Source of the DNA: Pseudomonas neustonica
GTDB lineage: Bacteria > Pseudomonadota > Gammaproteobacteria > Pseudomonadales > Pseudomonadaceae
Assembly (NCBI RefSeq): GCF_003797945.1
Contig: NZ_RKKU01000003.1
Location: 124,001-188,000, forward strand
Length of the DNA: 64,000 nt
Reading direction: 5' to 3'
In this document: positions 46,824-50,982 of the stretch, one piece after another
Position numbering within the stretch: position 1 is the first letter of the stretch
How the letters are laid out: each line of letters begins with the position of its first letter
Notes under the pieces: model-generated
Database searches by the model: none
The model's input: only the letters and a program-made list of their open reading frames with translations
What the model was told of the DNA's origin: nothing
Program-made: the position numbers and the translations under genes

Positions 46824-48623
46824 ATGAAGCGTTTGGCGGATCTGGCGATACCTGGTAGTGATCGCCCATTGGATTTGGGTGATTTCCTCAACGTATTGGC
46901 GGCGCAAGGGAAGATCGACCCTGAAACGGTTGACCACCTGGTGACGCTCAGGCGCTCAGGTTCCGGTGATACCGCCAAGCTACATCCGCTGCAGTTTATC
47001 GCGGCGCAAGAGGTGGCTGATCTTACGCGCCCCGGTAAGAAGCTGGATCTGGATACGCTGAGTCGCTGGTTGGCGGTTGAAACCGATCAGCCTTTCTTTC
47101 GCATTGACCCGCTCAAGATCAATGTATCGGCGGTAACGCCGCTGATGTCGTTTGCGTTCGCCCAGCGGCACAAGATTCTTGCGGTGGATGTAAACGAGAA
47201 AGAAGCCGTTATTGCCAGTGCGCAGCCTTTTGTCAGCGCCTGGGAGGACAATCTGCGTCATGTGCTGCGCCGCGACATCAAGCGCGTGGTGGCCAATCCT
47301 GCGGATCTGCAACGCTATACGGTAGAGTTTTATCGGCTGGCTCGTTCGGTCACCGGCGCTAATGCGGGCGATCAGAAAATAAGCGGCATCGGTAACTTTG
47401 AACAGCTGCTGAATCTGGGCAGCATGAGTCAGGAGCCGGACGCCAATGATGCCCACGTGGTGAATATTGTCGACTGGCTATTTCAGTATGCGTTCGAGCA
47501 GCGCGCCAGTGATATTCATGTCGAGCCGCGCCGAGATACTGGCAGTGTTCGTCTGCGCATTGATGGTGTGCTGCACACGGTGTATCAGTTCCCTATTCAA
47601 GTGACGGTTGCTGTGGTTAGTCGCCTGAAAACTCTGGGCCGAATGAATGTGGCCGAGAAGCGTAAGCCGCAAGACGGCCGTATCAAGACCAAGTCGCCTA
47701 AGGGCAACGAGATTGAGCTACGCCTATCAACCTTGCCTACCGCCTTTGGCGAGAAGATGGTGATGCGTATCTTCGACCCGGACGTTTTGCTGCGCACCTT
47801 TGATCAGTTGGGGTTTTCCAGCGAAGATCAACGTCGTTGGCAGAGTATGGTGTCGCAGCCCAACGGTATTGTGTTGGTGACCGGTCCCACCGGCTCGGGC
47901 AAGACGACAACGCTCTATACCACCCTCAAACAGTTGGCCACACCCGAAGTCAACGTCTGTACCGTGGAAGACCCGATTGAAATGGTTGAGGACAGCTTCA
48001 ACCAGATGCAGGTACAGCACAATATTGATCTGAACTTTGCCAACGCAGTGCGGGCGCTGATGCGCCAGGACCCGGACATCATCATGATCGGTGAGATTCG
48101 CGACCTGGAAACCGCCGAGATGGCAATTCAGGCAGCACTGACCGGGCACCTGGTGCTGTCTACCCTGCACACCAACGATGCGCCCAGCGCGGTAAGCCGT
48201 TTGATTGAGCTGGGTGTGCCTGCCTATCTGATCAAGGCGACGGTGCTGGGAGTGATGGCGCAGCGCTTGGTGCGCACACTTTGCCCGCACTGCAAGGCTC
48301 CCATCACGGTGGACGAAGAGGGCTGGGTCGATCTCACCAAGCCCTGGAATGCCCCCGTCCCGACCCAGGCCCAGCAGCCTGTAGGCTGTGTGGAGTGCCG
48401 GGAGACAGGCTACCGTGGACGCGCGGGCGTATATGAACTGATGCCCATTAGTGAGGGCATCAAATCATTGATTCACGCTGATACCGATCTGGGCGCTTTG
48501 CGTCGTCAGGCTTATAAAGAAGGTATGCACAGTCTGCGGTTGTCGGGGGCGCAGAAAGTAGCGTCCGGCTTGACGACCATCGAGGAAGTGTTACGGGTTA
48601 CGCCTCAGAGTCAGCAGAGCTGA
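46824..48623 (+). CDS. Orphan GspE/PilB-family secretion ATPase
   Basis: A 599-residue ATPase: MshEN/T2SSE N-terminal region (1-170), then the core with Walker A GPTGSGKTTT, Walker B IIMIGEIRD, the HTN histidine box, and a C4 zinc motif (CPHC ... CVEC). No pilin, inner-membrane platform or secretin gene accompanies it, so it is not part of a local type II or type IV pilus locus. A lone homologue at the equivalent place in Pseudomonas has no assigned role. It is 68 bp after the CYTH/CHAD gene. Confidence 0.88.
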   Translation: MKRLADLAIPGSDRPLDLGDFLNVLAAQGKIDPETVDHLVTLRRSGSGDTAKLHPLQFIAAQEVADLTRPGKKLDLDTLSRWLAVETDQPFFRIDPLKINVSAVTPLMSFAFAQRHKILAVDVNEKEAVIASAQPFVSAWEDNLRHVLRRDIKRVVANPADLQRYTVEFYRLARSVTGANAGDQKISGIGNFEQLLNLGSMSQEPDANDAHVVNIVDWLFQYAFEQRASDIHVEPRRDTGSVRLRIDGVLHTVYQFPIQVTVAVVSRLKTLGRMNVAEKRKPQDGRIKTKSPKGNEIELRLSTLPTAFGEKMVMRIFDPDVLLRTFDQLGFSSEDQRRWQSMVSQPNGIVLVTGPTGSGKTTTLYTTLKQLATPEVNVCTVEDPIEMVEDSFNQMQVQHNIDLNFANAVRALMRQDPDIIMIGEIRDLETAEMAIQAALTGHLVLSTLHTNDAPSAVSRLIELGVPAYLIKATVLGVMAQRLVRTLCPHCKAPITVDEEGWVDLTKPWNAPVPTQAQQPVGCVECRETGYRGRAGVYELMPISEGIKSLIHADTDLGALRRQAYKEGMHSLRLSGAQKVASGLTTIEEVLRVTPQSQQS

Positions 48624-48650
48624 GCGCCGCTGACTCTCGTTGGCAGACCG

Positions 48651-49877
48651 TTAAAATGAGCCTACAACATGCGCCGCCAGCCAGGCATCCGGTTCCTGCC
48701 CTTCGCTGGTGGCGCTGGCGCTGACAATAAATTTGAGCGGTGACAAGGTCCAGATACCGCCCACGGATGCCTTCAGCCAGCTGCGTTTTTCGCTATTAGC
48801 CTTGACGCTGAATTGCTCGCTGCCGTTCAATGCGCCGGTTATAGTCGAGCTCGATTGGTTGAATCGGTGCACTGCTTCCAGTCCTGACGTCAGACTGAAG
48901 ACCGTGCTGATCGGCTTGAGCGCATTGACCCCAACACGGCCTTCCGAGGTAGAAAGGTCGCTATCATCAAAGGCGGCGGGTGCGGCGCCTGAGTGCTCCG
49001 TGTAGCCGTCCATCTCGCTCTTGATATGCGACAGGTCAACAAAAGGGGAGATCGCTGCGCCCGCTATTACGCCTGCGCGCTCCCAGTCGGTGCGCACGCG
49101 CAGCGCCCAAGTTGCAGCATCGGTTTTACCCAGCGAGCGGTCGCGTTCGTCAGCGGTCAGATAACCGCGCTTGATCTTGAGGTCAGCGTCGCTGTAATAA
49201 GCGGTTACTGTGCCCCATGCATTGGCGCCAAGGGCGGGTGCGGGCGTAATCAGTTCCAGCACCGCGTATTGTCCCGTCTGTTCCTGTGATCCATTGAAGA
49301 CGGTACTCTGATCGCTCCAGGACTTGCCCAGCCCCAAACCGACTTGCGTGCGGTTATCGTCGATAACCCAGCAACCGCCGATTTCTGCGAGTTTGATCGA
49401 GCCGTCCCGCTGCTCATGGTTGTCCGCAGCCCAATCGCCTGACGCCCATAGGCAGGAGTCGCTGCCAGGCTCGGCACGCATATCCAGTGGGTTGCCATGG
49501 CTGCCGTGCAGTACCAGTCCCGCTCGGGTGACTGCTGCCTGCAATAATCGCGTTTGCTCGGTCAGACTTTGCAGCGTCGTTGGGGTAAGCAGCGTTGCTC
49601 GGCGCAAAAATAGCGTCACCTCTTTCTGGATGTTGTAGTCGGCCAGCGTCTTACCGTCCTCCAGCAGCTTGCCCGCAAAGACCAGGTTCTGATCAGCCGG
49701 GTCGATTCCCTCCTTGTCCTGGATCTTGGCTTTGACGTTTTCGATAGTGTCGTTCGCCTCTACTTCCAGCGAGATGATCTTGTCGGTCAGTGTTTTAACG
49801 AAAATCTGCAACGCGTAGCTAGGCAGGGAAAAAGACAGCAGTAACACCAGGCTTACAAGCTTAAGGGGTTGTTTCAC
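48651..49877 (-). CDS. Exported ubiquitin-autotransporter fusion protein
   Basis: A 408-residue protein in three parts. Residues 1-22 are a signal peptide (cut predicted after PSYA). Residues 23-91 are a ubiquitin domain: 53 of 69 identical to human ubiquitin by hand alignment, no gaps, with K6, K11, K27, K29, K33, K48 and K63 all kept. The C-terminal RLRGG is replaced by RATLL, so there is no Gly-Gly for conjugation. After a helical linker (about 95-125), residues 140-408 resemble a 12-strand autotransporter barrel ([11 protein letters not shown]; terminal Phe). The start is GTG with no clear ribosome site; an in-frame stop lies five codons upstream. Function is unknown; surface display of ubiquitin is inferred. 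Confidence 0.88.
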
Positions 49878-50094
49878 GGAGAGATTGACTCAGGTAGGGG
49901 CTGGCGGTGACAGCGTTATTGATGTTGTACGAGAGATGTTAAAGCCTATTTTAGCCACCTTGATACTTTTTTTATTTATGGTTGGTGAATCCAGCCCAGC
50001 CATAGGCTAGTTGCAGCGATAAAAACACTCTCGTCATCAGCTCGGCCTCGGCAGCTCGGTGCAGAGAGTCGCTGGGCAAAAAAGGCGGTCAGCC

Positions 50095-50103
50095 TGTTAG
50101 AAT
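50095..50103 (+). promoter_or_regulatory. Extended -10 promoter for rlmJ
   Basis: TGT followed directly by TAGAAT forms an extended -10 element 37 bp before the rlmJ start. No good -35 is visible, as usual for this class. The rest of the 262-bp gap (49878-50139) is AT-rich near the start of the ubiquitin-fusion gene and has no coding frame. Confidence 0.4.
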
Positions 50104-50139
50104 GCGCGCTTTACATTATGCTCTTACGCGGGAATACCC

Positions 50140-50982
50140 ATGAACTACCGTCACAGCTACCACGCCGGTAACCACGCCGATGTCCTCAAGCACGCGCTCC
50201 TGCGCCGACTGCTCGAGCTTATGCAGCGCAAGGACACGCCGCTGTGCTACCTGGATAGTCACGCGGGTACCGCCTTTTATGACTTACAGGGTGAAACCGC
50301 CGGTAAGACGGGCGAGTATCAGGATGGCATCGGGCGGCTTTGGCAGCGTGATGACTTGCCCCTGTGGCTGAATGATTTTCGTGCTGCCGTAGCAGGTCAT
50401 AACACTGCTGATGAGCTGCGTTACTACCCCGGTTCTCCCCAGTTAATTGCCGACCTGCTGCGCCCGCAAGACCGGATGATTCTTAGCGAACTGCATCCGG
50501 TGGATGCGGAGACGCTCAAACAGTATTTTGCGGATCAGGAGCAGGTGGCCGTGCATCAGCGTGATGGCTATCAGTTGCCCAAGGCATTTCTGCCGGTGGC
50601 CGAGAAACGCGCGCTCTGGCTACTTGATCCGCCGTTCGAGCAGCCTGATGAATTGCAGCGGTGCATCAGTGCTCTGCAAATTGCTATTCAACGGATGCGA
50701 CAAACGATTATCGCGCTTTGGTATCCCATCAAGGATCAACGACTGTTGCGCGACTTCTACCAGCAAATCGCTGATGCCGGTTTGCCCAAGGCGTTGCGAG
50801 TTGAGTTGAATATTCGACCGGCCGATAACCAGATGGGGTTGAATGGGTCAGGACTTATTCTGGTCAATCCGCCCTGGCCGATATGGGAGGAGCTTGAGCA
50901 GGTGCTGCCTTGGCTGGCGCGGACGTTAGCGCAGTCGGGGGAGGGGAGTTATCGGCTGGATTGGTTGGCTGGCGAGCCTTGA
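50140..50982 (+). CDS. rlmJ: 23S rRNA (adenine-2030-N6)-methyltransferase RlmJ
   Basis: A 280-residue enzyme with the family opening MNYRHSYHAGNHADVLKH and the catalytic DPPF motif (LLDPPFEQPDEL). It methylates A2030 of 23S rRNA before ribosome assembly. The length matches E. coli RlmJ. It is monocistronic and divergent from the ubiquitin-fusion gene. Confidence 0.94.
   Translation: MNYRHSYHAGNHADVLKHALLRRLLELMQRKDTPLCYLDSHAGTAFYDLQGETAGKTGEYQDGIGRLWQRDDLPLWLNDFRAAVAGHNTADELRYYPGSPQLIADLLRPQDRMILSELHPVDAETLKQYFADQEQVAVHQRDGYQLPKAFLPVAEKRALWLLDPPFEQPDELQRCISALQIAIQRMRQTIIALWYPIKDQRLLRDFYQQIADAGLPKALRVELNIRPADNQMGLNGSGLILVNPPWPIWEELEQVLPWLARTLAQSGEGSYRLDWLAGEP

Follow-up and report, generated by a model that had tools for sequence, protein, structure and literature searches.

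Bacteroides fragilis is, according to the 2017 paper on its protein BfUbb (PMC5705921), one of a few bacteria with a eukaryotic-like ubiquitin. BfUbb is secreted as a free protein and kills other strains of the same species, which is the sole tested function that was found for a secreted bacterial ubiquitin. As stated in the same paper, its signal peptide ends exactly at ubiquitin residue 1, the terminal glycine is absent and an immunity protein is thought by the authors not to be needed (PMC5705921). Sensitivity towards BfUbb is reported to be tied to one residue of a peptidyl-prolyl isomerase (Jiang et al. 2024, cited in PMC12396204). A ubiquitin secreted as an effector by a plant-parasitic nematode is also recounted in PMC5705921. 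Among the matches listed in open-licence PubMed Central, judged by titles and the starts of abstracts, none dealt with a fusion of ubiquitin to an autotransporter or to any other surface anchor of bacteria, although an earlier notice is possible; passages of PMC3482391, PMC11354881 and PMC8003559 do not mention such fusions.

Here, a gene of Pseudomonas neustonica encoding a ubiquitin joined to an autotransporter barrel is described. It is located in a stretch of 64,000 nucleotides (contig NZ_RKKU01000003.1, positions 124,001 to 188,000), referred to as the window. Together with its relatives, the gene suggests that bacteria across several phyla show ubiquitin on their outside for some purpose.

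Domain structure of the ubiquitin-barrel protein

The open reading frame (48651-49877, minus strand, GTG start) encodes 408 residues. The signal peptide (residues 1-22; 49812..49877, minus strand) abuts the first ubiquitin residue and was recognised in the translation and by a purely rule-based check, the stretch before residue 23 being short, positively charged, then hydrophobic, and ending in SYA. The ubiquitin domain (residues 23-91; 49605..49811, minus strand) was assigned by Pfam (residues 25-91, E 6.9e-22), alignment and predicted structure. From residue 23 onwards, 53 of 69 positions are identical to human ubiquitin without a gap, while the best of 20,000 shuffles reached 15 identities at most. 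Both the sequence and the beta-grasp fold of ubiquitin are thus present, which confirms the ubiquitin domain seen in the preliminary description of this DNA.

All seven canonical lysines are kept. The face formed by L8, R42, I44, H68 and V70 is not intact (R42N, I44V, H68F, V70R), and positions 70-76 read RRATLLT, without the LRLRGG tail and the C-terminal di-glycine. Since the di-glycine is missing and the tail is fused to the barrel, the domain is not conjugable; with its I44 face altered as well, it does not function as a tag in the manner of ubiquitin. The E2 conjugating enzyme family PF00179 had no match in the genome of P. neustonica, but the control also matched nowhere.

A linker helix (residues 101-126; 49500..49577, minus strand) was found in the predicted structure and by structural alignment. 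It aligns with the linkers of NalP, EstA and EspP (ranges on the model begin at residues 94-104), and its location in the barrel pore is deduced from this alignment only. An Asn-Asn cleavage site, the linker motif of SPATE proteins, is absent from it. The C-terminal part (residues 141-408; 48654..49457, minus strand) ends in Phe and, as had been surmised, is an autotransporter beta-barrel, according to both Pfam (residues 149-379, E 6.1e-20) and the structure prediction, in which it has 12 strands (pTM 0.71, with the relative orientation of the domains not reliable in the model). Two cysteines near the first two barrel strands, C142 and C169, are common to the proteobacterial ubiquitin-barrel proteins in the alignment and absent in those of Akkermansiaceae; they perhaps form a disulfide. 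GC3 is 0.75 in the ubiquitin part and 0.66 in the barrel, compared to a mean of 0.67 (range 0.64-0.72) for 12 other genes of the window.

Genomic setting

The gene is present as a single copy in its genome and lies within the interval 48624-50139 of the window. The left flank, which marks the insertion site, is a GspE/PulE-type secretion ATPase gene (46824..48623, plus strand), named from its sequence without a library search; the right flank (50140..50982, plus strand), present in all 37 genomes of the genus, encodes what we take to be an RlmJ-like rRNA methyltransferase. The interval was compared in those 29 of the 36 other genus genomes for which the locus was returned. In 21 of the 29, gspE lies 45-452 bases from rlmJ and the ubiquitin gene is absent between them. 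For seven of the other eight (all but L110), longer stretches were covered (L145-L151), whose gene names were read from the sequence and not from a library search. A TonB-receptor-like gene with a companion fills the interval in four of them; a fifth has a symporter-like gene together with a LysR-type regulator, a sixth (L146) another inserted gene, beyond which the last 26 codons of gspE are repeated, and the seventh runs to the contig end without gspE. As the interval is either nearly empty or filled with differing genes, it is a spot where genes come and go, the ubiquitin gene being one insert.

Presence of the gene across related genomes, a point raised in the preliminary description, could be mapped: a search of 58 genomes, its own included, gave any match in nine and, within the genus, a full-length relative in one genome besides its own, out of 36 (G031, 49% identity, at a different genomic place). 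The genome of P. neustonica also encodes a paralogous barrel (36% identity over query residues 103-404) with a different N-terminal region. Both this copy (L082, 1486-2841) and one in G033 (L085, 1108-2439) carry an N-terminal passenger of approximately 130 residues that differs from ubiquitin, and L084 has one that contains repeats, so related barrels carry different passengers.

Distribution of relatives

When 84,980 species-level genomes were scanned by exact peptide patterns, relatives of the window protein turned up at 286 loci. The set used below comprises 84 proteins, namely 82 from the best 80 of the 286 loci, the window protein and that of G031; L025, which has no plausible start, and L012, shortened inside the barrel, were kept. 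Judged by record titles, twelve named phyla are represented among the best 80 loci (two loci are without a phylum), and since many loci are metagenome bins, single phylum assignments may be wrong. Ubiquitin together with a near-whole barrel of the window type was encoded at 12 of the best 80 loci (13 proteins, the shortened L012 among them), from Neptunomonas, Pseudomonas (3), Thauera (two tandem copies) and Akkermansiaceae/Verrucomicrobiae (7). Relatives at four further loci (L025, L033, L044 and L051) align up to query residues 326-350 at 32-34% identity. Verrucomicrobiota group in one supported clade of the barrel tree, Pseudomonas together with Thauera in another. Only two of 398 genomes in a sample of the window's own phylum matched, own included; the family is therefore rare but wide.

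Tandem secreted ubiquitin genes were seen in the Thauera metagenome-assembled genome (MAG; L010, 222-1472 and 1742-2998) and in a rumen Clostridia MAG (L031, 4974-5537 and 5537-6088). Carriage by phages in this form was rejected (no match in 50,697 phage records at E 1e-5), as was carriage by plasmids, where 33 of 72,556 records matched, 32 of them in the barrel only and one with a Ruminococcus albus ubiquitin. Among the 15 of 22 viral-contig loci that were covered, several putatively viral IMG/VR contigs (L123-L125, L129, L131, L132 and L134) encode ubiquitin behind a signal-peptide-like stretch. That of L129 (from 3001) ends exactly in LRLRGG without extension, and those of L123-L125 end in what looks by eye like an IPTL-like tail.

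Anchors and neighbouring genes

Ubiquitin is present in all 84 proteins, and what follows it varies. An autotransporter barrel was found in 30, a T9SS tail in eight, S-layer homology (SLH) in six, IPTL-CTERM in three and a dockerin in two, which gives at most 49 anchored proteins as a sum of per-family tallies with possible overlaps, and at least 35 without a recognised anchor. The three OMP_b-brl matches are not a separate anchor because the same proteins (L015, L034 and L057) also match the autotransporter model. GLUG was found in six proteins, and L017 ends in an FGE-sulfatase-like enzyme domain. A signal peptide was recognised (rule-based) in 80 of the 84, the window protein included, and the residue preceding ubiquitin position 1 is Ala in 72. 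Ubiquitin stands directly behind the signal peptide whatever comes next, also in proteins of more than 1,000 residues.

In six short proteins, checked singly, ubiquitin is accompanied by an anchor and no further Pfam domain; the anchor is IPTL-CTERM in L016 and L049, a T9SS tail in L055, L074 and L077, and a dockerin in L052. These six and the window protein are the main reason for arguing that ubiquitin is the payload. An IPTL-type tail was at first also read in L050 and L063 and was rejected for want of Pfam support. L052 (1443-1946), from a Clostridiales MAG, consists of signal peptide, ubiquitin and dockerin, an arrangement that would place ubiquitin on a cellulosome-like scaffold. Two Flavobacterium loci (L037, 5010-5300, and L047, 4992-5279) encode secreted ubiquitins that are free and 96-97 residues long; they contain several cysteines, one of them near the C-terminus, and are possibly kin of BfUbb.

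A general operon partner was rejected, as only one neighbour family occurs in at least four of 82 loci (586 open reading frames of at least 100 amino acids). This family, an ABC-type ATPase by eye, was found at eight loci; seven families occur in at least three. A family of approximately 330 amino acids adjoins the ubiquitin-barrel gene downstream in L033 (6255-7253) and divergently in L034 (423-1433) and L043 (197-1186), which speaks against there being no partner at all and is the sole specific neighbour lead. Pfam returned nothing for the copy in L033 at E 0.01, and the family looks SET-domain-like by eye. The window has one neighbour family, of the secretion ATPase type, in common with L002 only, which is taken as chance.

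Conservation and selection

Across the 84 proteins, the median identity to eukaryotic ubiquitin is 61 of 69 positions. Among 15 ubiquitin-barrel proteins (105 pairs), median identity amounts to 75% in the ubiquitin and 40% in the barrel, and median dN to 0.17 and 0.64, respectively, with the ubiquitin slower in 103 of the 105 pairs. In both parts, most pairs come close to saturation in synonymous differences. Low dN combined with near-saturated synonymous change indicates long purifying selection inside bacteria, or exchange only among long-separated copies. Given this bacterial ubiquitin-barrel family, the near-saturation in most pairs and the ordinary GC3, the eukaryotic transfer considered previously is unlikely as a direct and recent event in this genome, while the ultimate origin of the domain may still be eukaryotic.

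A mutational scan in yeast lists R42, I44, K48, G75 and G76 as sensitive, under stress also L8, V70 and L73 as well as the core positions I36 and L71, and reports the opposite face to be mostly tolerant (PMC4862753). Eight sensitive positions were used here, leaving out I36 and L71, and conservation was counted over 83 rows, from which L060 was dropped (no signal peptide, may be eukaryotic), although it is included wherever counts refer to 84 proteins. The human residue is kept at frequencies of 0.80 (L8), 0.64 (R42), 0.73 (I44), 0.84 (K48), 0.67 (V70), 0.35 (L73), 0.17 (G75) and 0.11 (G76), compared to a mean of 0.86 for the other 68 positions. By a rank test, the eight are thus less conserved (p 0.0003, and p 0.0075 when only residues 1-70 are compared). 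For five sensitive positions, the values were 0.61 versus 0.86 in the window family (15 rows) and 0.76 versus 0.89 in the other rows. All 84 proteins retain Q2, F4 and E34; among rows whose inclusion the seed motif alone cannot explain, K63 is retained at 0.96 and E64 at 0.98. Part of the conservation on the F4 side may be structural. A simple two-face picture is countered by the surface positions around 16-28, where variation is equally high (mean 0.62), and face lists other than that from yeast were chosen partly after viewing the data and are illustrative. As the set represents the best 80 of 286 loci for the window query, conservation is over-stated, the correction covering the two seed motifs only.

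These counts do not support the earlier suggestion of strong selection to mimic a eukaryote, since the positions critical in yeast are among the less conserved ones in the bacterial set; the four substitutions in the window ubiquitin and its missing di-glycine also tell against it. The full set of L8, R42, I44, H68 and V70 is kept in 34 of 83 proteins, so some members could still bind eukaryotic partners, and GG at positions 75-76 in five of 83.

Possible function and comparison with known systems

The window gene would encode a minimal classical (type Va) autotransporter with ubiquitin as the sole passenger. From the computed ubiquitin fold, linker helix, 12-strand barrel and family membership, we infer export, cleavage, insertion and passage as follows. 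The protein would be exported by Sec and cut by signal peptidase exactly before ubiquitin residue 1; the barrel would insert, the short passenger would cross to the outside, and the folded, uncleaved ubiquitin would stand approximately eight residues above the barrel mouth. Display outside the cell is the natural reading of such a protein. The displayed ubiquitin would be a small, very stable surface ligand that most likely binds, via the conserved F4/K63/E64 side and not the I44 side, to a partner carried by other cells, either bacterial competitors or protist grazers. Such a surface ligand with a partner on other cells is the most likely role of the window protein, put forward with modest confidence and favoured because the protein is anchored, unlike BfUbb. 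What counts against display is that passengers in type V export are preferably unfolded, and ubiquitin, given its high stability, could stall after folding in the periplasm.

Alternatively, ubiquitin might be presented to or shed onto neighbouring bacteria and poison a target in their envelope, as the free BfUbb does. The killing of conspecifics and the isomerase residue mentioned above would fit this, as would the junction directly at residue 1 and the lacking terminal glycine that the window ubiquitin shares with BfUbb, the free ubiquitins of the two Flavobacterium loci and the finding that no obvious immunity gene lies next to the window gene. Being fixed to its outer-membrane barrel by a linker without an Asn-Asn site, however, the window ubiquitin should not reach the periplasm of a neighbour, so that an interbacterial weapon seems unlikely from this analysis. 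We give equally little credence to the proposed decoy, adhesin or effector directed at protists, algae or animal cells. The near-eukaryotic sequence, the origin, by record titles, of a number of carriers from the rumen, other ruminant gut and ponds, where protists graze, and the nematode effector would be in line with it, but the I44 face and the C-terminal tail are the relaxed parts, and ubiquitin-binding proteins act mostly in the cytosol. Ubiquitin as a fast-folding N-terminal cap, merely aiding export or shielding the protein, is still more doubtful. Its constant place behind the signal peptide, even in the largest proteins, agrees with such a function, and folding outside could drive type V export; yet several proteins carry nothing but an anchor after ubiquitin, so that there is little to help, and any stable fold would do, whereas the actual sequence is conserved, with Q2 and F4 invariant throughout the set. 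An artefact, whether through contamination by eukaryotic DNA (conceivable for L060), misassembly or chance resemblance, is practically out of the question and is refuted for the window gene by its 287,682-base contig in a genome 100% complete and 0.18% contaminated, its place between genes common across the genus, family members in named isolates and the shuffling result.

Display as a surface ligand may be part of a wider habit, in which several phyla would place the unit of signal peptide and ubiquitin on whichever surface anchor they own. Tentatively, and as something possible rather than probable, a transferable surface ubiquitin unit can be proposed, spread over about a dozen phyla and several anchors, with ubiquitin as payload, selection shifted off the I44 face and onto the side opposite it for a partner unrelated to the eukaryotic ubiquitin system, and BfUbb as a free, weaponised branch. 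In a bolder form, the common partner would be an envelope peptidyl-prolyl isomerase or a similar chaperone, engaged in cis during export by anchored proteins and in trans as a poison by BfUbb. The 286 loci, with 80 of 84 proteins exported-looking and up to 49 of 84 anchored, make a family of what had been a curiosity and raise a question that can be tested, namely what ubiquitin binds outside bacteria. The family also serves as a natural experiment for ubiquitin itself: why its tolerant face is conserved in eukaryotes was not fully accounted for by the mutational scan in yeast (PMC4862753).

Compared to BfUbb (PDB 8hm2; PMC3352274, PMC5705921), the window ubiquitin is 49% identical and likewise has a signal peptide predicted to be cleaved exactly before ubiquitin residue 1, but it is fused to a barrel, whereas BfUbb is free and, according to these sources, was shown to kill B. 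fragilis strains. With eukaryotic ubiquitin and its fusions (polyubiquitin, Ub-eL40, Ub-eS31) it has in common the fold, 53 of 69 residues and the N-terminal position of ubiquitin in a fusion protein; unlike these, it lacks the LRLRGG required for cleavage or conjugation, its I44 face is altered, and it is joined to a bacterial barrel and predicted to be exported. Like the classical autotransporters EstA of P. aeruginosa and NalP of N. meningitidis, whose passengers are an esterase and a protease, respectively, the window protein combines a signal peptide, a helical linker and a 12-stranded C-terminal barrel, all traits of type Va, while ubiquitin, 69 residues long, is its passenger and no further domain was recognised.
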